Counted from the stretch's first letter, positions 7,642 through 23,116 are shown. The stretch: 41,419 nt of DNA from Natrialba chahannaoensis JCM 10990 (GCF_000337135.1 NZ_AOIN01000055.1:4663-46081); one strand, 5' to 3'. The notes: generated from the letters alone by a model not told the origin. Made by a program: numbers and translations.

Positions 7642-7662
7642 CGTGAGACCGACGGTCTCACG
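7642..7662. repeat. 9-bp hairpin at the tnpB 3' end
   Basis: CGTGAGACC-GAC-GGTCTCACG is a perfect 9-bp stem with a 3-base loop overlapping the last codons and stop of the broken tnpB. Together with the hairpin at 7674-7690 it marks the likely right end of the IS, the region that in TnpB elements yields the guide (reRNA/omega) RNA. Confidence 0.6.
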
Positions 7663-8862
7663 GACCATGCGAACGGGCGCTTCGCGCCCGTGAGCAGATG
7701 GGGCTTCCTGTTTCTATGACGCGCTTTGCAGACACCGAATGGGTGTCCGTAGGGAGCGCAGTCTCCACAGGTGTGTCTTCGGGCCATCCCAGCCCTAACT
7801 CAGAAAAGCCGCGCTGCAAGACGTTCACCGCCGTCGCAAAATCGCACGCGATTTTGCTGCCCGTCAGACGTAGTCTGACGACCGCGTTCGCGTCCCGGTC
7901 ACACTCGAACCCACACGACGGACACGAGTGTTCTCTGATCCAGATCGGTTTCGCTGTTTCCACACCGCACGACGCGCATTCCTTCGTCGTCCCAGCGGCT
8001 TCCACCTGAACGACGTGACAGCCGTACAAGTCTGCCTTATATTCGAGGAGGGAGATGAACTGTCGCCACGCTGCATCCTGTTTGTTCCGAGCGTTGTACG
8101 ACTGTTCCAACATCCCCTTCACATCCAAGTCCTCGACGAATACGGCGTCGTATTCGCGGACGAACCACGTCGACAACTTGCGTTGTTCACGGCGGAGGAG
8201 GGCGTATTCGTCTTCGAGGTCGAGCCAGCCCACGATCTTGCCGTCACTAGTGTGGATGTAGTTCAGAATGCCGAGATCAACACCGACGCTGTTGCTCGTG
8301 TCGAGCGAATCTACGTCAGGTTTCTCGGGTAGATCAGCTTCATCGGTTTCGAGGCCGAAGGAGACGAACCACTCACCAGTTGTCTCCTTCTTGATGATGA
8401 CTTCTTTGATGGCTGCTTCGTCTGGAATCTCCGGTGGTAGCGGATCGGGATGTCGCCGATTTTGGAGAGCCAGAGCGTCGCACGTCGGCCACTCGTGTTT
8501 TTGAGTTCGAAGCCAGACTGCGAGTACGTCATACTTTGAAACTCTCTCGGGGACTTCCACTTGAGTTTCCCGACCTTTCGACCGTTTTGTTTCTGCTCGG
8601 AGAGTCCGGCAAGGTTCTGGTAGAACCGGGTGACGGTTCGTTGCAGAGCCTTCGAGTTAACTTCCGAGAAGACGGGGAACTCGTCTTTCCAGTCGGGGAG
8701 TCGGTAGTGGTGTTTGTATGCGGAACCGATATCGTCGGCGTCTACGTTCTCGTACTCGTACAGGGTGTAGTTGTACGCTTGGCGATGAATGTCGATGTGA
8801 TGTTGCAGTTCAACCGCTCCCTCTTGTGTCGGGTATGCAGGGTAGCGGTGACTGTACTCCAT
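7658..8862 (-). pseudogene. tnpB: tnpB pseudogene (frameshift plus internal deletion)
   Basis: TnpB, the RNA-guided nuclease of IS200/IS605 elements. The N-terminal part reads from ATG 8862 (MEYSHRYPAYPTQEGAVELQ) in one frame down to about 8430. There one base is missing in CACCG-GAGATT, and the rest continues in another frame with EIPDEAAIKEVIIKKE. RuvC motifs remain: VGVDLGILN, VFVEDLDVKGM and the DRDANAV Asp after a CxxC...CxxC zinc ribbon. A second lesion is an in-frame loss near 8171: RREQRKLS runs directly into STWFVREYD, where intact TnpBs have a longer linker helix. Both lesions make it inactive. Confidence 0.85.
7674..7690. repeat. 7-bp hairpin in the tnpB 3' region
   Basis: CGGGCGC-TTC-GCGCCCG, a perfect 7-bp stem with a TTC loop, inside the last codons of the tnpB pseudogene and next to the 7642-7662 hairpin. 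A plausible part of the former guide-RNA scaffold. Confidence 0.5.
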
Positions 8863-11496: not shown

Positions 11497-12207
11497 GGCC
11501 ACGGGTTGTACCGGTTCGCCTATTGGTGTTGTGTTCTGTTCCGTCAGCTCTCACGCATCATCGATTCCGATACATCGCTGGTTCACGCACATCGCTGGAT
11601 CCAGAACACACTGGTTCCACCTTTTCCGACTGGCACCCAGAATTTCACTCATCAATTCTGCCTCAGGAACGGTTTAACTACCTCATATCGGTGTGTCTGA
11701 CGTTCAGTTCGACTAGCTTTACTCGAGTACACCACCGTTCAACAGCACCGTATTCCGAAGCGTTTTATACGGGGGGTGTCGACGACCTGAAGTGTACGAC
11801 CGACCGCACTGTCCCGCCCCGTGACTACATCACGAGACCCCCCTCCACTGATCGTACTGCGATCGACAACCCGTGAACGCGCTACAGCTCCCCCTCCGAC
11901 CCGATGACGGACGCCGTTTCCACGCATACATCACCAGAGCGAATATCGAATGCTATGCGTTCCCGTCACTCGGTTACCGTCACTATAACGATACGTCGTT
12001 GGATCAAACCGAAACTGAGCCCGACGGACGACTCCCATCTCCACCACCGAAACGTCCCGATCTCTCCCAGACTACACAGAATGACGACGACCCTCAGCAC
12101 GACAGCCGAAGCGAGACCGACAGCGAGAGAAACGATTCGTGGTCCACTCACGACCGTCTCCAGACAGCCGAACACAACCATAACCACGACAAACGGAGGT
12201 GCAACGC
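11497..12207. other. intergenic, 710 bases, no convincing gene
   Basis: Two overlapping plus-strand frames (11873-12211 and 11904-12224) exist, but both translate into His/Thr/Arg-rich low-complexity peptides unlike the neighbours, so neither is called. A good TATA-like TTTTATAC at 11763-11770 faces the SBP/PAP2 unit and would give a leader of about 410 bases. The decamer ACATCGCTGG occurs twice, 10 bases apart (near 11575 and 11595). Confidence 0.5.
12195..12200 (+). promoter_or_regulatory. Shine-Dalgarno of the first SBP gene
   Basis: GGAGGT lies 7 bases before ATG 12208 and is a strong match to the 16S 3' end. It decides the start over GTG 12199 and fits a leadered mRNA, unlike most genes in the window. 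Confidence 0.65.
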
Positions 12208-14115
12208 ATGAACTCGCCGTCTGACGACGCTGACACTGGCACCAGCCGCCGATCGCTCCTTGCCGCCGGTGCGACCGGGCTATCGATCGCTGCGAGCGGC
12301 TGTATCGACCGCGTCCAGAGTGTCGTCGACTCCGATGCTGCCGAACAGCTCTCGCTCTCCATTCTCTCTCTCCCCGCCGCCGACGGCGACCGAGAGAGCG
12401 CCGAAATCGCGCGCCATCTCGAGGGTAACCTCGAGGCAGTCGGCATCGACGCGACGATCAGCACTCGTTCTGAGTCAGAGTTTCTGGAGGCGATCTTGAT
12501 CGATCAGGACTTCGACCTCTACGTCGGTCGCCACCCGGCAGACTTCGACCCGGATTTTCTCTACGAGACGCTGCATTCCACCTACGAGTACGACCAAGGC
12601 TGGCAGAACCCGTTCAGTTTCACCGACACGCTGTCGATCGATCCGTTGCTCGAGCGCCAGCGCAACGAAACTGGTGCCGATCGCGAACGGGCCGTCACAG
12701 AACTGCTAGAGGCAATTGCACAGGTGAAGCCGTTCGAACCGATCTGTGTCGCGAACGAGTACCGGGCCGTTCGGACGGACCGATTCGACGGCTGGGACGA
12801 AACCCACCTCGGGACCGGCAGAGGCTACCTCGGACTCGAATCCGCCACTTCGTCCGACACCGAACAGCTTCACGCACTCGTCACGGACCAGCGGCTGGCC
12901 CAGACCTTCAACCCGCTTTCCCCGACGACGCGCGAGCAAGATGTCATCGTCGATCTGGTGTACGACTCGCTCGCCGTTCCAACGTGGTCCGTCCCCGACG
13001 AGGCAGAGGCGACCGAGGAGGAGACACAAGCGGGCGCAGAAGTGATCGACGCGGCAAACGTCTCGATCGAACCTTGGCTCGCGACCGACTGGGAGTGGGA
13101 CGGCGACACCCGAACCATGACCGTCGACATCCGCGAGGACTGTACGTTCCACGACCACACCGAGGGCGACAGCAACGACGACAATGGCAACAACGGTACC
13201 GACAGTGCCATTCCACTCACCGCCGAGGATGTCAGGTTCACCTATCGCTTCCTCGCGGACACGACGTACGGACGCACCTCGAGTGCTTCGCCCGCACCAC
13301 GCTATCAGGGCCACGCGAGCGCCGTCGACTCAGTCACCGTCGAGGACGACTACCGACTCACGATCTCGTTCTCGACGGACCGAGCCGTTGCTGAGCGCGC
13401 GCTGACGGTCCCAATCCTTCCATCCGGATCGGACTCACCCTGGATCGCCCATCTCGAAAGCAGGGTCGACTCCACAGACGACGACTGGTCGCCGACGCAG
13501 GGCGACTGGAGCATCGTGACGACCGATCATGCGCCACCAACTGGCAGTGGACCCTACAAATACGACTCCCACGACGCAGGCGAATCTGTCACGCTAACGC
13601 GCTTCGAGGACCACTTTACGCTCCGAGACGACGATCACGACCTGCCAGCGCCCACAGCCGACGAACTCCACTTCGAAGTCGATCCGGGTACGAGTTCGTC
13701 GGTCGAACGGGTCGCAAGCGGCGACGCCGACATCACGACATCGGTGCTCGATACGTACGCACTCGAGTCAACGTTAGACGACGAGGCTGTGTCGTTCGTC
13801 GAATCTCCCTCGTGGTCGTTCTATCATGTCGGCTTCAACACGCACAACACGCTGTGTAGCAGCCCCCGATTCCGTCGTGCGGTCTCGCAACTGATCGACA
13901 AGCAGTGGGTCGTCGAGGACGTGTTCGCGGCGGAAGACAGCGCACGACCCGTCGCGACGCCGGTTGCCGAGGAGTGGACGCCTGACTCACTCGCCTGGGA
14001 CGACGGCGAGCTGGTAACGACGTTCATCGGTGAGGATGGTGATGTCAACGTCGACGCTGCGCGAGAATTGTTTGCATCGGCATTCGAGTACGACGGCGGG
14101 GAGCTTGTACGGTAA
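12208..14115 (+). CDS. Tat lipoprotein, circularly permuted SBP_bac_5-like (copy 1)
   Basis: 635 residues. Tat lipoprotein signal: SRRSLLAAG with RR at 14-15 and lipobox ASGC32. Residues about 49-215 (LSLSILSLPAADGDRES, DFDLYVGRHPADFDPDFLYE, WQNPFSF, KPFEPICVANEYRAVRTDRF) resemble the C-terminal lobe of peptide/nickel binding proteins such as DppA. Residues about 228-635 resemble their N-terminal part: FNPLSP, LVYDSLAV, WLATDWEW, PLTAEDVRFTYRFLADT, PSWSFYHVGFNT, FRRAVSQLIDKQWVVEDVF. The protein ends at AARELFASAFEYDGG, just where the C-lobe usually starts. A low-complexity Asn/Asp insert splits FHD and LTAEDV, unlike copy 2. It lies 11 bases before a PAP2 gene. No permease is nearby, so transport is not shown; ligand binding at the outer membrane face is the inference. 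Confidence 0.82.
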   Translation: MNSPSDDADTGTSRRSLLAAGATGLSIAASGCIDRVQSVVDSDAAEQLSLSILSLPAADGDRESAEIARHLEGNLEAVGIDATISTRSESEFLEAILIDQDFDLYVGRHPADFDPDFLYETLHSTYEYDQGWQNPFSFTDTLSIDPLLERQRNETGADRERAVTELLEAIAQVKPFEPICVANEYRAVRTDRFDGWDETHLGTGRGYLGLESATSSDTEQLHALVTDQRLAQTFNPLSPTTREQDVIVDLVYDSLAVPTWSVPDEAEATEEETQAGAEVIDAANVSIEPWLATDWEWDGDTRTMTVDIREDCTFHDHTEGDSNDDNGNNGTDSAIPLTAEDVRFTYRFLADTTYGRTSSASPAPRYQGHASAVDSVTVEDDYRLTISFSTDRAVAERALTVPILPSGSDSPWIAHLESRVDSTDDDWSPTQGDWSIVTTDHAPPTGSGPYKYDSHDAGESVTLTRFEDHFTLRDDDHDLPAPTADELHFEVDPGTSSSVERVASGDADITTSVLDTYALESTLDDEAVSFVESPSWSFYHVGFNTHNTLCSSPRFRRAVSQLIDKQWVVEDVFAAEDSARPVATPVAEEWTPDSLAWDDGELVTTFIGEDGDVNVDAARELFASAFEYDGGELVR

Positions 14116-14126
14116 CACAACATCAC

Positions 14127-14996
14127 ATGCTTGCACAAGTACTCACACGAGTCGCGCTCGTCGTTGCGGTCGCGCTCTTGGTCTCGCTCGTCGTCTTCGT
14201 CGGTCGCGACCGGCTCCTCTCACTACGGACGGAGTGGCGACCGCGACTCCGCCAGAGCGCTCCTGCGTTCGCCCTCTTGCTCGCGGTCCTCGGACTGAAT
14301 CGGATCATGCGCCAGGACGGATACGACATCTCACAGGCGTACGGCGTCCATATGACCGAGGTGTTCTACTCGCTTGAGGGCGAGCTCGTCCTGGCCTTTC
14401 GAGCGATTGCGACACCGGAAGTGACGACGTTCTTCTCGATCTCGTACGTTTACGTCTACGCGTTCGTGCTGGTCTTCCCGGTCGTCGCCTACTTTGCGCT
14501 CTCGGACACTGTCGTCCTTCGACAGCTGTTGACCGCGTACTCGCTCAACTACGTGATCGGACTCACCTTCTACCTGCTCGTGATCGCTTACGGGCCGCGA
14601 AACGTCATGATCGAGGGAATGGACGCAACACACCTCTACTACGCGAGTCCGGAGTACATTCACCTTACAACGGAGGTCAACCAGAATCGGAACGTCTTCC
14701 CCTCGTTGCACACTTCGCTGTCTGCAACCGTCGCTATCTTCGCCTACATGACCCGCGACCAGTACCGAGCGTGGTTCCCTGTCGCCGTCGGCCTCGCGAC
14801 GAGCGTCATCATCTCGACGATGTACCTTGGCATCCACTGGGCCATCGACGTGGTTGCTGGCCTCATCCTCGCCGTCGTCTGCGTTGCACTTGCAAAGCGA
14901 CTCGTGGGCCGCTGGTCGCTGTTGGCTCTTCTTGAGCGCGTTCGAGCCGCCGGACGGAGCGAGGCTACATCCGGTTCGGGCCGCAAGCAAGGGTAG
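14127..14996 (+). CDS. PAP2 family phosphatase / AUR1-like membrane protein (copy 1)
   Basis: 289 residues with about six transmembrane segments. The PAP2 core is intact: FPSLHTS (C2, catalytic His after PSL) and STMYLGIHWAIDVVAG (C3: His-x3-Asp). The C3 Arg of the usual SR motif is Thr, as in the inositolphosphorylceramide-synthase-like branch. The C1 region is divergent (VIAYGPRNVM rather than KxxxxxxRP). The family removes or transfers phosphate head groups of lipids, with the active site on the outer face. It starts 11 bases after the SBP-like lipoprotein stop, so the two are probably co-translated. The C-terminal tail is short and basic. Confidence 0.85.
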   Translation: MLAQVLTRVALVVAVALLVSLVVFVGRDRLLSLRTEWRPRLRQSAPAFALLLAVLGLNRIMRQDGYDISQAYGVHMTEVFYSLEGELVLAFRAIATPEVTTFFSISYVYVYAFVLVFPVVAYFALSDTVVLRQLLTAYSLNYVIGLTFYLLVIAYGPRNVMIEGMDATHLYYASPEYIHLTTEVNQNRNVFPSLHTSLSATVAIFAYMTRDQYRAWFPVAVGLATSVIISTMYLGIHWAIDVVAGLILAVVCVALAKRLVGRWSLLALLERVRAAGRSEATSGSGRKQG

Positions 14997-15053
14997 TTGG
15001 GTGCAGCGAGAGTCGATACACAACTACGAGAGAAGACGCTGCAGCGCAATACT

Positions 15054-15061
15054 GTTATATC
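15054..15061 (+). promoter_or_regulatory. TATA box of the second SBP-PAP2 unit
   Basis: GTTATATC lies 30-37 bases before ATG 15091, so a nearly leaderless transcript is predicted. The second unit can therefore be expressed independently of the first. Confidence 0.55.
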
Positions 15062-15090
15062 ACCACGAGCGAACTGTGGCAACGGACCTA

Positions 15091-17010
15091 ATGAGCGACC
15101 CCGGCCCGTCAGCCAGCCCTGAACATCACACACGCGCCAGCGACGACACCGATCGCAGCGGTCTGAGTCGGCGGTCGATGCTCGCCGCGACAGCCGGTCT
15201 CACCGTCTCAACGAGCGGCTGCATCCGCGAAATCCGGAGCATCGTCAACCGAAACGAGGTCGAACAGCTCTCACTGACAATCTCGACGGTGCCCGCCGAC
15301 GGCGACCGAGAAAGTATCCAGCTTGCCCGCGCCGTCGGATCTGCACTCGAGTCCGTCGGTGTCGATATCGCGATCGACATGCTCTCACACGAGGAGTTTC
15401 GGCGCGCAATACTCGTCAATCACGACTTCGATCTCTACGTTGGCCCCCACCCTGGAGACACGACCCCGGACTTCCTCTACGAACTTCTGCACTCGCGCTT
15501 CGCAGAGGAAGCAGGCTGGCAGAACCCCTTTGGACTGACGACCCTCTCCATCGACGACCGGCTGGAGGAGCAACGCGTCGCCGAGAACGGAGGCGAGGAC
15601 GACGAGAACGGTGACCGTGAGGATGCAATCACAGCGACACTCGAGTCGGTTGCGCGCGAGCAGCCGTTCGTTCCGATCTGTCGACCGACGGAGATCAGAC
15701 TCGCGCGTTCGGATCGGTTCGAGGGCTGGGGAGAGGGCCATCCAGCGACGCGCTTTGGCTACCTTGGTCTCGAGCCAGAGTCGAAGGATGCAGCGGCGGA
15801 ACTGCGAGCGGTAAACACGGATGCACGGCCGTCGCAGAACCTGAACCCGCTGTCGGCGGAGTATCGCGAGCGGAATCTCGTTGTCGGGTTGCTGTACGAC
15901 TCGCTCGCGGTGGCGCGGTGGCGCGGTGACGAACGCCCGATTGCTGGGGGCGAGCAGGTGGATGCCGACACTGGCACGGAGACCAACTCCGAGCTCGACC
16001 CTGACTCCGCGACCGACCTCACTCCGTGGCTCGCCGCTGACTGGGAGTGGACCGACGACGAGACGCTCCACGTCACCCTCCGGGAGGACTGTGCGTTCCA
16101 CGACGGCACGCCGCTCACTGCCGAGGACGTCGCTTTCACCTACGAGTTCCTCGCGGACACAACCCGCGGCAGCCGGCGCTTTTCGGCACCGACGCCTCAC
16201 TATCGGGGCCGCGTTGACGCCGTCGACGACGTGACCGACCTGAGCGAGACCGAACTCGAGTTCACCGTTGGGACGAGTCAACCGGTCGCCGAACGCGCAC
16301 TGGAGGTGCCGGTTCTCCCGAAACACATCTGGGACGAGCGCACGGCCCAGGCGAGCCTCCCTGGCGTCACAGTTGCTGAAGGGACGACCGAGGCGCTCGT
16401 CACTGACAACGTGCCGGCGATCGGCAGCGGTCCCTACCAGTTCGAGGACCGAACCGACCGCGAGCACGTTACGCTCGCGCGCTTTGACGAGCACTTCACG
16501 CGACGAGACGGCGTCGACCTCCCCGAACCGACGAGCGAGCGTCTGCGAATCCAGATCGACCCCCGCAGTACGTCCGCGATCGAACTCGTCGAGAGCGACA
16601 GTGCCGACGTGACGCTCTCGACACTCGAGTCCTACGTCGTCGACGACGTGTTCGAAGACGACGGGGACGTTCCAGAAACGACGATACTCGAGTCCCCCTC
16701 GTGGTCGTTCTACCACGTCGGATTCAACGCGCGGAAGGCACCGTTCACCAACCCGCGATTCCGGCGGGTGGTCGCCCAGTTGCTCGACAAGGAACAGCTG
16801 GTCGAGGAGGTGTTCCACGGCTACGCAGAGCCGATCGCGACGCCGGTCGTCGAGGAGTGGGTCCCCGACTCGCTCGCCTGGAACGGAAACGATCCGGAAA
16901 CGCCGTTTCTCGGAACTGACGGCGATCTCGACGTGGCGGCGGCGCGGGAGGCGTTCGAAGGGGCAGGACTGCGCTACGACGACGACGGTAATCTCCGGGT
17001 GAGACACTGA
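15091..17010 (+). CDS. Tat lipoprotein, circularly permuted SBP_bac_5-like (copy 2)
   Basis: 639 residues, paralogue of 12208-14115. Signal LSRRSMLAATAGLTVSTSGC has RR at 27-28 and lipobox Cys44. The C-lobe-like block (LSLTISTVPADGDRES, VGVDIAIDMLSHEEFRRAIL, DFDLYVGPHPGDTTPDFLYE, REQPFVPICRPTE) comes first. After about residue 240 comes the N-lobe-like block: LNPLSAEYRERN, LLYDSLAVARW, LREDCAFHDGTPLTAEDVAF, PAIGSGPYQF, NPRFRRVVAQLLDKEQLVEE. The end is VAAAREAFEGAGLRYDDDG, then six residues. This copy keeps the uninterrupted HDGTPLTAEDV motif. Its TGA overlaps the next ATG by one base. The start is the ATG 30-37 bases after a TATA box; the open frame extends upstream into copy 1 PAP2. Confidence 0.84.
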   Translation: MSDPGPSASPEHHTRASDDTDRSGLSRRSMLAATAGLTVSTSGCIREIRSIVNRNEVEQLSLTISTVPADGDRESIQLARAVGSALESVGVDIAIDMLSHEEFRRAILVNHDFDLYVGPHPGDTTPDFLYELLHSRFAEEAGWQNPFGLTTLSIDDRLEEQRVAENGGEDDENGDREDAITATLESVAREQPFVPICRPTEIRLARSDRFEGWGEGHPATRFGYLGLEPESKDAAAELRAVNTDARPSQNLNPLSAEYRERNLVVGLLYDSLAVARWRGDERPIAGGEQVDADTGTETNSELDPDSATDLTPWLAADWEWTDDETLHVTLREDCAFHDGTPLTAEDVAFTYEFLADTTRGSRRFSAPTPHYRGRVDAVDDVTDLSETELEFTVGTSQPVAERALEVPVLPKHIWDERTAQASLPGVTVAEGTTEALVTDNVPAIGSGPYQFEDRTDREHVTLARFDEHFTRRDGVDLPEPTSERLRIQIDPRSTSAIELVESDSADVTLSTLESYVVDDVFEDDGDVPETTILESPSWSFYHVGFNARKAPFTNPRFRRVVAQLLDKEQLVEEVFHGYAEPIATPVVEEWVPDSLAWNGNDPETPFLGTDGDLDVAAAREAFEGAGLRYDDDGNLRVRH

Positions 17011-17987
17011 TGCTAACGCAGGTTCTCCTCCAGTTGGTCGTCGTGGTCACGCTCATGGTGCTCGTCTCGATCGCGGTCTTCGTCGGCCGCTACCGGTTGC
17101 GAGATACGCGACTCGAGTGGCGCGCTCGCATTCGGGCGGCAGCACCGGTGTCGGCACTCCTTGCTGCCGTATTGCTGTTCAATAGTGTTGCGAGACAGTA
17201 CGGCCCCGACGTCTCCTGGATAATTCACTGGAATCTTACGTGGCCGATCTACGATGTCGAGGGTGAGTTCATCCTCTGGTTGCAGTCGTTCGAAGCGCCA
17301 GCGATTACGGCGTACTTCTCGTTCATCTACATCTACGGCTACGTCTTCTTGCTCGTCTTCCCCGTTATCGCCTACTTCGCGCTCTCGAATACGCGCCCGC
17401 TGCGCGAGCTCCTGACGGCGTACACGCTGAACTACGTGCTGGGGCTGGGACTCTACGTCTTCATCGTCGCCTACGGGCCGCGAAACATGATGCCGGAACT
17501 GGTGGACGCGCTGCTGTACGATACGTATCCCCAGTACCAGCACCTCACGCGGCAGGTCAACCGGAACACGAACGTCTTCCCATCGCTGCACACCTCGCTC
17601 GCGGCGACTGTGATGTTCCTGGCCTTCCGAACCCGAGCGATCTATCCGAAGTGGTTCCTCCTCGCGACAGGCCTTGGTGTCTCGATCGCGATCTCGACGA
17701 TGTACCTGGGTATCCACTGGGCCATCGACGTGGCCGCGGGAATCGTCCTTGCCTACATTTGCGTCGCGCTCGCGCACGTCCTGGTCGGCCGTTGGTCGTT
17801 CACGGCGTGGGTCGCGTCGCTTCGGGACTCGAGTACGAGTACGGGCGCAGATACAAACACGGGCGCGAACGCTGGCTTTCCTAAGACACCCCCGTCGGAG
17901 TCAACGTCGAAGTCACACTCACACTCGGACTCGGACTCGGAGCCAGAGTCTGAAACGGGTTCGGATCCCGAACCAGAGCGTGCCTAA
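17010..17987 (+). CDS. PAP2 family phosphatase / AUR1-like membrane protein (copy 2)
   Basis: 325 residues, paralogue of 14127-14996. It shares the motifs VAYGPRNMMPE, NVFPSLHTSLAATV and STMYLGIHWAIDVAAGI, with the catalytic His and His-x3-Asp intact and SR again ST, in about six transmembrane segments. It differs by a 55-residue hydrophilic tail rich in Ser, Thr, Asp and Glu, coded partly by GACTCG-type repeats (17913-17950). The start ATG 17010 shares its A with the stop codon of the lipoprotein gene (TGATG), so translation is coupled. The substrate may be a lipid or polyprenyl phosphate; this is inference. Confidence 0.85.
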   Translation: MLTQVLLQLVVVVTLMVLVSIAVFVGRYRLRDTRLEWRARIRAAAPVSALLAAVLLFNSVARQYGPDVSWIIHWNLTWPIYDVEGEFILWLQSFEAPAITAYFSFIYIYGYVFLLVFPVIAYFALSNTRPLRELLTAYTLNYVLGLGLYVFIVAYGPRNMMPELVDALLYDTYPQYQHLTRQVNRNTNVFPSLHTSLAATVMFLAFRTRAIYPKWFLLATGLGVSIAISTMYLGIHWAIDVAAGIVLAYICVALAHVLVGRWSFTAWVASLRDSSTSTGADTNTGANAGFPKTPPSESTSKSHSHSDSDSEPESETGSDPEPERA

Positions 17988-18642: not shown

Positions 18643-19149
18643 ATGACCGGACGGATTCACGCGATTCACATTGCCCCCGAACAGGGCGCGCCGTTAGAGT
18701 CAGTTGAACGCGTTGAGGCCGTGGCCGGCCGCGGGCTCGCGGGCGATCGCTACTACACCGCTGAGGGAACGTTCGAGAACTGCGAGGGCAGCGATCTCAC
18801 GCTCATCGAGCGCGAGACGCTCGCCGCCGTCGAACAAGACTACGATATCGACCTCGAACCCGGCGTCCACCGGCGAAACGTCACGACGGCTGACGTTGCA
18901 CTGAACCACCTCGTCGGCAACCGCTTTCGCGTCGGTAACGCCGTCTGCGAGGGGATTGAACTCTGCGAGCCGTGTTCGTATCTCGAGCGCCATCTCGAAC
19001 GCGAGGGCGTCCGCGACGCGCTCGTCCACCGCGGCGGCCTGCGCGCACGGATACTCGAGAGCGCGACACTCGAGACGGGTGACCAGATTGTCACTGTCAC
19101 CGCCGATAACAGCGAGACGGGAGACGAAAAAGAGACGAACCGAACATAG
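18643..19149 (+). CDS. MOSC domain protein
   Basis: 168 residues forming a single MOSC (Moco sulfurase C-terminal) domain. It has VEAVAGRGLAGDRYY near the start, LTLIERETLAAV, HRRNVTTADVALNHLVG, and the Cys-bearing loop IELCEPCSYLE, where the conserved Cys binds sulfur or a molybdenum ligand. MOSC proteins handle molybdenum-cofactor sulfur or reduce N-hydroxylated compounds. No Moco genes are nearby, so the exact role is open. A short acidic tail follows the domain. Confidence 0.87.
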   Translation: MTGRIHAIHIAPEQGAPLESVERVEAVAGRGLAGDRYYTAEGTFENCEGSDLTLIERETLAAVEQDYDIDLEPGVHRRNVTTADVALNHLVGNRFRVGNAVCEGIELCEPCSYLERHLEREGVRDALVHRGGLRARILESATLETGDQIVTVTADNSETGDEKETNRT

Positions 19150-19230
19150 ACGGCACCCACGCCACACCTTCCTGAATCGGCACCGTTTTCGCCGCTCGCT
19201 CCTGAGGCCCGACCAACGGCGACATCTCTC

Positions 19231-20028
19231 ATGAACGAGCGAGGCAGTCAATCACTGATGGATCAAGAAACGCTCGACCGGCGCGTCCAGGCCGGTGAAA
19301 CACCGCAGTGGGTCGCCGACCACTGGGACTCCTTTCAGGAGGGGCTGCTCGGCGAACGAAACAACTCGCCGTTTCCCTGCTTCTTCGGCGCGGAATCGGT
19401 CGCCGCGGGCGAGCCGCTGTACACCGCCGTCCCGTCGATGAGCGATGCCAACGCCCTGTTGACCCTGCGCGATCGGGTACTCGAGTACCTCGATGTCTAC
19501 CAGGACCACGCGGGACGCGCGTCGCTCGTCACGTTCTTCAAGCCGCCCGAGGACCCGCTTTCGGAGCGCGAGTATCACGACGCGCTCTGGCACATTCTGC
19601 AGACGCTGCACCTGCACGATCCAGAGCCTTGGCCCGAGGACATTCCGACGGATCCCGACGACAAGCATTGGGAGTTCTGTCTGGGCGGCGAGCCGATGTT
19701 CCCGACCTGTCGGGCACCGTTCTACGACACCCGGAAGAGTCGCTACTGTCCGATCGGCCTCGAGATCACCTTCCAGCCGCGGGCGCTGTTCGAGAATTTG
19801 AACGTTACTGCAGAGTACGAGGCCGGTCAACGCGCCCGCGACGTGATCCAGGACCGTCTCGAAGAGTACGACGGCGTCTGCCCGCATGCTGATCTCGGCG
19901 ACTGGGGCGTCGACGGCGACCGGGAGTGGCCCCAGTACATGCTCTCCTCGGATGAGGAACAAGCGCCCACCGAGTGTCCGATCACCGTCACGCGGGACCA
20001 TCCGAAGCCGGCAGCGAGGTTGTCATGA
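19231..20028 (+). CDS. YqcI/YcgG family protein
   Basis: 265 residues. It matches the YqcI/YcgG family in [40 protein letters not shown] followed by [28 protein letters not shown] and [15 protein letters not shown]. The conserved FPCxFG and CLGGExMFPTC cysteines suggest a redox or metal role, but the activity of the family is not established as far as I know. Its TGA overlaps the next ATG by three bases (ATGA), so it forms an operon with the isochorismatase-like hydrolase. ATG 19258 (MDQETLDRR) is an alternative start. Confidence 0.83.
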
Positions 20029-20609
20029 CCGACGCGGCTACCTCGTCACCCCCAACCGACACAGACCTGGACGACGCTGCACTCGTCCTCGTCGACTTCC
20101 AGACGGGCTTCGACGACTCCGCCTGGGGCACACGAAACAATCCCAACGCTGAGGATCGAGCCGCCGAGTTGCTCACACACTGGCGCGAGACGAAGCGCCC
20201 CGTCGTTCACGTCCGCCACGCTTCAACAGAGGCAGCGTCACCACTTCGGCGCGACCAGCCTGGATTCGCGTTCAAACCCGCCCTCGAACCGCGCGACGAC
20301 GAGCAGACGTTCGCCAAGTCAGTCAACGGCGCGTTCGTCGACACCGCACTCGAGTCCTGGCTGCGCGAGCGCAACATCGAATCGCTTGTCGTCGCCGGAC
20401 TGACGACGGATCACTGCGTCTCGACGACGACGCGGATGGCCGAAAACCGTGGCTTCGATGTCCACCTGGCCGCCGACGCGACCGCGACGTTTGATCGGAC
20501 GTTCGACGGCGAGGAGTTCGACGCGGAGACGATGCACAGAACGGCGCTGGCACAGCTAGATGGTGAGTTCGCGACGGTCGTACGAACGGCGTCGCTGGTC
20601 GACAGCTAA
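20025..20609 (+). CDS. isochorismatase family cysteine hydrolase
   Basis: 194 residues with the isochorismatase-like fold. The catalytic Asp is in [12 protein letters not shown] (about 20-31), the Lys in the FAKSVNGAF segment, and the nucleophile Cys in [20 protein letters not shown]. The Cys-bearing GxxTDxCV motif is that of nicotinamidase/N-carbamoyl hydrolase relatives. The natural substrate is unknown. Start ATG 20025 lies within the stop of the YqcI/YcgG gene (ATGA), implying translational coupling and perhaps a shared detoxification role. Confidence 0.87.
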
Positions 20610-20643
20610 GAACTGGCTCCCGAGAACGGAGAACACACCCCTG

Positions 20644-21420
20644 TCAGCCGAACGAGCCAAGCGACGACTGCAACTCCCGCTCTGTCTCGCCGTCCTCGAG
20701 TTCGTAGCCGACCAGATCACGCATGTCGACCGCGTAGGTCGTCCCACCCTTCTCGACCACGAGAATTCGCCCCTTCACACCGCGAACCGTGCCCGACACG
20801 ATTGTCTCCCGAACCGGCCGGGACTCGAGTACGGGTTCGAATTCGTAGTCGAACTCGAAGCGCTCGATGACCTCGAACTCTGCAAGCACGTCGTTCCAGG
20901 CGTCCTCGTCGACGCTGCTCGCGAGGGCGGCGATCTTCGGGCCGGTACGGACGCGGTCGACGAGCCACTCTGCGATTTCGGCCTCGATTTCGCGGGCGAT
21001 CTTCCCGTTCGAGACGGTGTGGATATGCGCCGCTCGGTCGGCTCCCTGCTCGCGGAGGCGCGTTTCGAGCCGCCAGCTTCGGGTGACGCCAACCTTGAAC
21101 GTATCGGGGGCGAAGGCGGCGATGTAGACCGCGTGCTCCTCGTAGCAGTCCATCTCGTCCTTCAGGCAGGTACCCGTACAGCGGGCACAGACCCAGGTAC
21201 TCGTGTGGAACTCACAGTACGGTGCCGACGCGCGGTCGCAGGCGATGTGGCCGGCCTCGCCGATGGTGCCCGCGCAGTGGCGCTCACCGAGCGCGTAGGT
21301 CAGTTCGTCGCCGGACTCGAGTGGCCGGTGCTCGATGTCGTTGCCGTCAGCGTCGCCGTCTGCGAGGAGGAGAGCCGAACCGCGGCCGCTCGGCTCGTAG
21401 CCGACCACTTGCACGCGCAT
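20644..21420 (-). CDS. DUF2797 domain protein
   Basis: 258 residues. The N-terminal half has three Cys/His groups (HCAGTIGEAGHIACDRA, PYCEFHTSTWVCARCTGTC), consistent with bound zinc. The middle has a GIY-YIG-like core (HAVYIAAFAPDTFKVGVTR followed by LETRLREQGADRA). The C-terminal part (about 190-255) is a beta-rich region (GTVRGVKGRILVVEKGGTTY). This order fits DUF2797, and a nuclease-like activity is suggested by the Y...Y-I...K-V-G...R motif, but I do not know that it has been tested. ATG 21420 gives MRVQVVGYEP; the open frame extends to 21507 without family features. Confidence 0.8.
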   Translation of the reverse strand: MRVQVVGYEPSGRGSALLLADGDADGNDIEHRPLESGDELTYALGERHCAGTIGEAGHIACDRASAPYCEFHTSTWVCARCTGTCLKDEMDCYEEHAVYIAAFAPDTFKVGVTRSWRLETRLREQGADRAAHIHTVSNGKIAREIEAEIAEWLVDRVRTGPKIAALASSVDEDAWNDVLAEFEVIERFEFDYEFEPVLESRPVRETIVSGTVRGVKGRILVVEKGGTTYAVDMRDLVGYELEDGETERELQSSLGSFG

Positions 21421-21570
21421 TCGTTGGTGGTGGGGGCAAATATACTCCTCGCTGTCGTTACGAACGGGCCCGACTCGAGTGGCGCGCGTACTCGAGTTCA
21501 CCGCCAATACAGGTTCGTCTTACCGGTCACCCGGACGAACAATTATGGGCCGTGGGGGAGATGCGGACGT

Positions 21571-21918
21571 ATGGCACTCGATGGAGAACTCGACGCGACA
21601 GTATCGTCGGGCGCGACGGGACCGGATGCCGTCACGCTCGCGTTTACGGTGCGAAATGAGGGCACAAAGACAGAAACGCTGCGGTTTTCGGACGCCTGCA
21701 AGGCAGAGTTCGTCGTTCAGGACGAGGGCCGAGAGGTCTGGCGCTACACGGACGGGCGGATGTTCGCCCAGATGCTGAGTGCCGATGAACTCGATCCGGA
21801 CGAAGAGACGACCTACGAGGCGGAGTGGGAAGAGCCACAGTCGGGTGAATTCACCGTCGTTGCGGAGTTGCAGGCGCGGGGGACGACGTGTGAGGCGCGG
21901 ACACAGCTGACGATGTGA
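21571..21918 (+). CDS. BsuPI-like proteinase-inhibitor domain protein
   Basis: 115 residues with a beta-sandwich pattern typical of the BsuPI (intracellular proteinase inhibitor) domain: VTLAFTVRNEGTKTETLRFS, then AEFVVQDEGREVWRYTDGRM and YEAEWEEPQSGEFTVVAELQ. In Bacillus the founding member inhibits an intracellular serine protease; in archaea the partner is unknown. No signal peptide is seen, so it is cytoplasmic. It is divergent from the DUF2797 gene across a 150-base spacer. Confidence 0.75.
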   Translation: MALDGELDATVSSGATGPDAVTLAFTVRNEGTKTETLRFSDACKAEFVVQDEGREVWRYTDGRMFAQMLSADELDPDEETTYEAEWEEPQSGEFTVVAELQARGTTCEARTQLTM

Positions 21919-22179
21919 GGCTCTTGGGCTAACATTTGAGGGGTGCCGAACTAACGGTTTGAGAGCTCTTGAGCTGCTCGGCTCTTTGTGCGTTGTAGTC
22001 TGAAACGTGGGAACTGTGATCGCTGCCTCGCCATCCGTGAGCGGAACGGACGGGTAGTGGACGTCGAACAGAAGCGAGTGGACAACCGGACTACCAATCC
22101 TAAATATTGATTTTCGATGTCAAACATCTTCTTTCCAATTCCCGAGTCCGAGTTCCCGGTTCGACAGAAACAACGAAGT

Positions 22180-22187
22180 GAATAAAC
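22180..22187 (+). promoter_or_regulatory. TATA-like box of cbiX
   Basis: GAATAAAC lies 24-31 bases upstream of ATG 22211, so a leaderless start at the second of two nearby ATGs (22205 and 22211) is favoured. Confidence 0.45.
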
Positions 22188-22210
22188 CATCCCCCTCCTA
22201 ACGAATGGAC

Positions 22211-23116
22211 ATGCAAGCGCTGGTCATCGCGGCACACGGCTCGCACCTGAATCCGGATGCCTCGACGCCGACGTACGCCCACGCGGACACGATCCGCGAG
22301 ACGGGCGCGTTCGACGAGGTTCGCGAGGCGTTCTGGAAGGAGGAACCGCACTTCCGTGAGGTGATCCGCACACTCGAGTCCGACGAGGTGTTCGTCGTCC
22401 CGCTGTTTATCAGCGAGGGCTACTTCACCGAGCAGGTCATCCCGCGAGAGCTCCGCCTCGGTGGCTGGGAGCCCGACAAGTGGGAGTCAGACGGCACGAG
22501 CGCCTCACAGGTTACCCTCGAGGCTGAGGATGTCGGCAAGACGATTCACTACTGCGGCCCGGTCGGTACGCACGACGCGATGACGGACGTGATCGTCCAG
22601 CGCGCCGAAAGTGTCACCGACGACCCTGACGTGGGCGAGGGCTTCGGCCTCGCGGTGGTCGGTCACGGCACCGAGCGCAACGAGAACTCGGCAAAAGCAA
22701 TCGAGTACCACACCGAACGCATCCGCAAGCGAGATCGCTTCGACGAGGTCAAGGCGGTGTTCATGGACGAGGAACCGGAGGTGGACGACGTGACGGAGTT
22801 CTTCGAGAGCGACGACATCGTTGTTGTGCCCCTCTTTATCGCCGACGGCTACCACACGCAGGAGGACATCCCCGAGGACATGGGACTCACCGAGGATTAC
22901 CGTCTCGGCTGGGACGTCCCCGCCGAGGTCGACGGCCACCGCATCTGGTACGCCGGCGCAGTCGGCACCGAGGGCCTGATGGCCGACGTCCTTCTGGAGC
23001 GCGCCGCCGACGCGGGTGCAGAACTCGGCGACGCGATCGACCGCGTTCGTCAAATCACGAGCCCAGCGAACGGTGCTGACGGTGATGCCAGTCGACACAG
23101 CCAGGCGGGTGACTAA
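22211..23116 (+). CDS. cbiX: sirohydrochlorin cobaltochelatase CbiX, long form
   Basis: 301 residues with two CbiX halves. Each has a metal-binding His motif, LVIAAHGSHLNP in the first and LAVVGHGTERNENS in the second, and each has the product-site block VVPLFISEGYFTEQVIP or VVPLFIADGYHTQEDIP. It inserts Co2+ (or Ni/Fe) into sirohydrochlorin in early cobalamin or tetrapyrrole synthesis. The double-domain form contrasts with the small archaeal CbiX(S). It is followed one base later by a DR2241-type Fe-S protein, a frequent partner. ATG 22211 fits the TATA spacing; 22205 is the in-frame alternative. Confidence 0.88.
   Translation: MQALVIAAHGSHLNPDASTPTYAHADTIRETGAFDEVREAFWKEEPHFREVIRTLESDEVFVVPLFISEGYFTEQVIPRELRLGGWEPDKWESDGTSASQVTLEAEDVGKTIHYCGPVGTHDAMTDVIVQRAESVTDDPDVGEGFGLAVVGHGTERNENSAKAIEYHTERIRKRDRFDEVKAVFMDEEPEVDDVTEFFESDDIVVVPLFIADGYHTQEDIPEDMGLTEDYRLGWDVPAEVDGHRIWYAGAVGTEGLMADVLLERAADAGAELGDAIDRVRQITSPANGADGDASRHSQAGD

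Follow-up and report, generated by a model that had tools for sequence, protein, structure and literature searches.

Among the closest described systems is TpMglB-2 (Tp0684, "Type Ic / Cluster Bc") of Treponema pallidum, a cluster B binding protein whose chain is circularly permuted in nature; its authors proposed membrane tethering as a possible driver of the permutation (PMC4990184). We analysed a stretch of 41,419 nucleotides from Natrialba chahannaoensis JCM 10990 (NZ_AOIN01000055.1:4663-46081), hereafter the window, in which two genes, copy 1 and copy 2, encode lipoproteins of the SBP_bac_5 family (PF00496) of solute-binding proteins (SBPs), each followed by a gene for a PAP2-family membrane phosphatase. 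Judging from their sequences, we consider that each of the two lipoproteins is a family 5, cluster C SBP whose chain has been circularly permuted in nature, with a probability of about 0.97. Our search of the literature, with subscription journals mostly outside it, found no natural permutation described for the oligopeptide-type, family 5 (cluster C) SBPs and nothing relevant on haloarchaeal SBP-PAP2 pairs. The earlier note on this DNA, which knew of no description of the permutation, was thus right for family 5 in the literature searched, but not for SBPs at large, since TpMglB-2 has been published (PMC4990184).

The window proteins resemble TpMglB-2 in being lipid-anchored SBPs that are naturally permuted, that keep a bilobed fold (a predicted one in the window family) and that are conserved across several taxa. 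TpMglB-2, however, is an MglB-like protein of cluster B with its break in the N lobe and an extra hinge crossover, whereas the window family has its break in lobe 2, has no extra crossover and belongs to cluster C, as do both the sequence matches and the top fold matches of the window proteins, and it stands among several independent events in family 5, one of which has an unpermuted sister at 85% identity. Like the canonical SBP_bac_5 proteins DppA, OppA, NikA/NikZ and AccA, the window proteins match the family profile over both of their segments and have a secretion signal, a predicted bilobed fold and the hinge crossovers. They differ from them in that the order is permuted within lobe 2, in that the termini and the lipid anchor would lie in lobe 2 where those proteins have them in lobe 1, and in that they adjoin a PAP2 gene and not the permease gene of an ATP-binding cassette (ABC) transporter.

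Copy 1 is located at 12208..14115 on the plus strand, with an ATG at 12208 and an in-frame alternative GTG at 12199, and copy 2 is located at 15091..17010 on the same strand, with an ATG at 15091; both open reading frames are intact and conserved. Reading of the sequence gave both proteins the twin-arginine translocation (Tat) arginine pair and the lipobox cysteine of an exported lipoprotein: SRRSLL and a Cys codon at 12301-12303 in copy 1 (12208..12303), and SRRSML and a Cys codon at 15220-15222 in copy 2 (15091..15222), both also supported by alignments. In copy 1, the segment encoded by 12349..12840 corresponds to the C-terminal third of a canonical SBP (profile positions ~321-464), according to the profile and to the strands and helices of the model, and it precedes the segment encoded by 12862..14112, which corresponds by profile and model to canonical residues 1 to ~345 (profile ~3-320). 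The profile placed the same two segments of copy 2 at 15265..15774 and 15796..17007.

The two proteins matched PF00496 strongly, with values of 2.6e-46 and 2.2e-47. Profile positions 2-286 aligned with the C-terminal residues ~290-635 of both copies, and positions ~292-363 aligned with residues ~60-130, a match that scored by itself 21 bits in copy 1 and 15.6 bits in copy 2, while the Pfam cut-off is 32.4 bits. A profile tuned to the family gave the order 326-459, 7-43, 46-143 and 156-317 in copy 1 and the order 323-459, 7-42, 41-156 and 155-320 in copy 2, and no second C-lobe was found at the C-terminus of either. Because neither protein follows the collinear order of lobe 1, hinge, lobe 2 and return to lobe 1, we classed both as circular permutants derived from SBP_bac_5 and not as canonical members.

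The same order was found outside the window. Four of the 11 SBP_bac_5 loci of this genome are in swapped order, namely the two window copies, one on contig C77 and one on contig C43, and the displaced segment of the C43 paralogue reached 33.5 bits by itself, over the Pfam cut-off. With the tuned profile, the displaced segment of the relatives scored between 57 and 133 bits. A refined profile recovered the swapped order (321-464 then 3-320) in all 33 permuted relatives and in none of the 16 canonical proteins, which all aligned as 3-466, and no part of this profile was missing or doubled in any permuted sequence. We then rotated, at every 25th position, the columns of a profile made from ten canonical haloarchaeal SBPs and scored it on 26 relatives in permuted order. 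On average, the best single-domain score increased from 130.6 bits over 352 aligned residues in the native order to 161.6 bits over 501 aligned residues at the proposed cut, which was the maximum of the scan. Since the scan peaks at the claimed cut, the swapped order is not due to chance.

Comparison of a paralogue from the same genome with the PDB showed that it aligns to the solved structures of OppA, NikZ and DppA with its halves swapped: residues 189-512 of the query aligned with residues 5-328 in proteins of the NikA type and related ones, and residues 16-146 with residues 369-490 of Bacillus subtilis OppA. The PDB matches of related proteins were swapped likewise, and no chain with the permuted order was present among the matches of this paralogue. 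The Pfam order, the rotation scan and the PDB matches, together with the conservation in hundreds of genomes and an archaeal permuted/unpermuted pair at the DNA level described below, are independent tests that bear out what the earlier note had read in both proteins, namely the C-terminal block first (residues 49-215), the first blocks second (from residues 228-240 on) and no C-lobe copy repeated at the end; its residue ranges were correct within about 10 residues.

The cut is equivalent to residue 371/372 of the Escherichia coli DppA precursor. It lies inside lobe 2, between a helical first part, which ends in LLxEAGYxxDG, and an alpha/beta second part, so that both new termini are in lobe 2 and the crossovers between the lobes keep their canonical number. 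The end of the proteins had been placed where the C-lobe begins; this has to be corrected, as the break is past LLxEAGY, within the lobe. The old N- and C-termini are near each other in cluster C structures, so joining them would be easy (PMC10924461). By sequence, these old termini are joined by a short linker and the new ones open in a single loop of lobe 2, just ahead of the strand that comes after LLxEAGY. From the signal peptide and lipobox, the chain leads through the second part of lobe 2 and back to lobe 1, then over the linker into lobe 1, the hinge and the first part of lobe 2, where it stops. The fold and its two-lobed clam-shell closure would stay the same, and the membrane tether would hang from lobe 2 and not from lobe 1.

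The AlphaFold2 model of copy 2 is a single confident body, with a predicted local distance difference test score (pLDDT) of 84.2 and a predicted template modelling score (pTM) of 0.84, and that of copy 1 is fair (pLDDT 77.6, pTM 0.79). The top Foldseek matches of both models in the PDB were all of cluster C, with target-normalised template modelling scores of 0.33-0.52 in sequential alignment. These low values fit a permutation, in which a sequential aligner can place no more than about two thirds of the chain, although they are in themselves no proof of it. For the permutation and the fold taken together, our confidence is only slightly lower than for the permutation itself.

The permuted family is old and occurs widely. 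With a profile that covers the junction of the two segments, matches were obtained in 300 of 391 sampled haloarchaeal genomes at 1e-5, of which about 260 by an eye count reached 1e-30. The weak matches were partly canonical C-lobes, and we place the family in about two thirds of these genomes, with Natrialba, Natronorubrum, Natronococcus, Halostagnicola, Natronomonas and Halopenitus among the carriers. By gene context, the family is split into two branches. Members of the ABC branch would still serve a Dpp-type ABC importer: the permuted SBP gene is followed by those of DppB, DppC, DppD and DppF in complete Dpp-type operons of haloarchaea and Alphaproteobacteria. The spread in bacteria was read from plasmid records only, with carriers in Nitratireductor, Roseomonas, Microvirga, Ketogulonicigenium, Maritalea and Neorhizobium. 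Against these alphaproteobacterial proteins, a permuted query gave a single collinear alignment covering 96-98% of the query; with canonical SBPs, that of the Agrobacterium Ti plasmid among them, two pieces were needed. The alphaproteobacterial translations have a signal peptide, the displaced segment and a stop after LLxEAGY, and they have no lipobox. The bacterial ABC-branch SBP genes often adjoin hydantoinase/oxoprolinase, M20/M28 peptidase or Asp/Glu racemase genes, and that of Halalkalicoccus adjoins a creatininase-family gene; these neighbours (loci L095, L097, L114 and L115) hint at amide or cyclic-amide ligands. The earlier note had also held that the two duplicates share their order and that the permutation predates the duplication. 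The first statement extends to all their relatives, and the second was an understatement, since Alphaproteobacteria share the permutation.

The other branch, which includes the window copies, is haloarchaeal and stands outside ABC operons, with a PAP2 phosphatase that would be co-translated with the SBP. A PAP2 gene is directly downstream in nearly all its loci, mostly with an overlap of 1 or 4 bases, and the two genes are often duplicated together as a unit. At 14 loci of this branch with long flanks, no Dpp permease or ATPase gene was present within 6 kb. The lipobox cysteine, at column 1, is invariant in the alignments of the branch (A2 and A6). In the window, the PAP2 gene of copy 1 (14127..14996, plus strand) starts 11 bases past the stop of the SBP gene, and that of copy 2 (17010..17987, plus strand) shares one base with the stop codon of its SBP gene (TGATG); both were identified by Pfam and alignment, with PF14378 matches of 1.9e-17 and 2.3e-17. 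The PSLHTS and STMYLGIHWxxD motifs are intact in the partner of copy 1, and the catalytic residues H194, H236 and D240 are invariant in 14 proteins, in which both motifs are kept. Like the PAP2 superfamily (PF14378 PAP2_3, PF01569), these are multi-pass membrane proteins with the PSLHxS and YLGxHWxxD motifs; unlike it, they appear to be co-translated with a permuted SBP lipoprotein, and their first motif looks like YGPRN and not like the classical KX6RP.

Comparison of 49 SBPs, aligned on order-independent profile columns with both segments taken jointly, gave an unrooted tree in which the PAP2-linked SBPs formed one clade (support 100/100) and all the haloarchaeal and alphaproteobacterial permutants fell on one side of a branch (99/98). 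The tree, being unrooted, does not in itself fix the polarity in the haloarchaeal clade. L107, which is a permuted SBP of a different archaeal family within the same phylum, grouped among canonical proteins, and an approximately unbiased (AU) test rejected its union with the other permutants (p = 0.008). The C-terminal part of this protein (L107:3733-5472, genome G549) has a proline-rich stretch, PGF, a transmembrane helix and RRRR, and resembles an archaeosortase-type anchor; by its sequence, the protein is apparently tethered at the opposite, C-terminal end. The profile overlap of 322-335 at both ends of L107 falls in low-complexity sequence, and a leftover tandem duplication is not claimed.

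Another permuted SBP was found in three genomes of this archaeal family (G482, G490 and G529; L135-L137), that of L137 (G490) being Dpp-linked. In the two genomes compared, its segments were 84-86% and 85% identical to an unpermuted SBP of the same genus (L130), and in the DNA of all three genomes the two blocks have exchanged places without changing strand, at 77-80% identity. The permuted proteins L126/L127, with L130 as the unpermuted sister of L126, branch from within canonical proteins that they match at 85% identity, and their permutation is therefore clearly derived. The cuts of L107 and L126/L127 are almost identical to that of the haloarchaeal family, and a third group, L123-L125, consists of SBPs of about 700 residues cut elsewhere (profile ~390), whose segments match Yersinia DppA as 458-530, 29-125 and 198-448. 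Proteins of this group (L123:1328-3424, L124:2112-4265 and L125:1368-3509) have extra N-terminal residues, and their genes adjoin Dpp permease genes. An extended tree separated L107, L126/L127 and L123-L125 from the haloarchaeal clade. At least three independent permutation events in family 5 are supported, and there were probably four.

Could the swapped order be an artefact? A spurious N-terminal match of the hidden Markov model, in ordinary SBPs whose C-lobe was lost or has diverged, would agree with the low scores of the displaced segment alone in the window copies, both below the cut-off, but we give almost no weight to this explanation in view of the 57-133 bits of the relatives, the rotation maximum at the predicted cut, the swapped PDB halves and the DNA-level swap in the close pair. 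An assembly artefact was also rejected, because the order is kept in many independent assemblies, single-contig genomes included. A fusion in which another SBP gene contributed the N-terminal third, which would make the proteins chimeras and not strict circular permutants, was raised by the authors of TpMglB-2 for their own protein (PMC4990184); here the two halves are strongly diverged, and for the haloarchaeal clade we saw no intermediate with two SBPs in tandem. We nevertheless regard a fusion as very improbable, since the cut and the join are exactly complementary, with no part missing or doubled, and since in the recent, Archaeoglobus-like pair both halves match one parent gene equally (86% and 85%). 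A single old permutation behind all permuted SBP_bac_5 proteins, non-haloarchaeal ones included, would account for the nearly shared cut of L107 and L126/L127. This explanation is, if anything, a little less probable than a fusion: it is opposed by the AU test on L107 and by the different cut site of L123-L125, and the nesting of L126/L127 refutes it unless their canonical neighbours are reverse permutants.

The adjacency, overlap and joint duplication of the SBP and PAP2 genes recur across haloarchaeal families, which argues for a functional pair, and we regard such a partnership, on these genomic grounds, as somewhat favoured. In its most likely role, the tethered SBP would bind a phosphorylated or lipid-derived ligand outside the cell and, at the membrane surface, either deliver this ligand to the PAP2 enzyme or regulate the enzyme, the exact direction of the partnership being a tentative proposal. 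Several points weigh against this reading of the family. The evidence for the PAP2 role consists of adjacency, coupling and conservation; the structural support consists of predicted models and sequential Foldseek alignments, the members being known from sequence and models; and tethering is not a general cause of the permutation, because the alphaproteobacterial members have no lipobox and lipoprotein, apparently C-terminally anchored (L107) and untethered forms all occur. The window SBPs might also still feed an ABC permease encoded elsewhere, with PAP2 as a mere neighbour. Orphan SBPs are common, and permuted relatives occur in complete ABC operons. We consider ordinary importer receptors of this kind less likely than the partnership, though a real alternative, since the order of the two genes, their tight overlap and their tandem pairing are retained from one haloarchaeal family to another and the SBPs linked to PAP2 form a single clade. 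As for the ligand, we saw no clear equivalent of the conserved peptide-binding aspartate (D408 of DppA) in the permuted families, but this residue falls in an alignment insert, and no ligand was deduced from it. Naming of the ligand from the Foldseek ranking, with NikZ and binders of sialic acid, opines and sugar phosphates near the top, was rejected, the identities being 15-20% and the alignments sequential only.

A Pfam scan of the neighbours of the window copies detected no cognate ABC permease or ATPase genes, including at 18643-23116 downstream, where genes for a MOSC domain protein, YqcI/YcgG, an isochorismatase, a BsuPI-domain protein and a CbiX-type chelatase are located. Upstream, a TnpB-like open reading frame (7658-8560, minus strand) with a Cas12f1-like TNB domain (PF07282) is probably the remnant of an IS200/IS605-type element.

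Natural circular permutations are usually visible only long after the event, and family 5 shows several. Since one genus contains permuted genes and unpermuted ones with about 85% identity between their proteins, it can be tested directly how a circular permutation proceeds and what it costs, and the alphaproteobacterial members also bear on the proposal made for TpMglB-2, as tethering cannot generally drive permutation. The automatic label "ABC transporter substrate-binding protein" conceals the permutation, and it also conceals that a phosphatase gene, and not one for an ABC permease, accompanies many haloarchaeal copies. At slightly under even odds, we propose that family 5 represents a hot spot of natural circular permutation, with at least three events, two cut sites and one near-identical unpermuted parent, and that the permuted lineage of haloarchaea may have become the receptor half of an ABC-independent, two-gene PAP2 membrane module.

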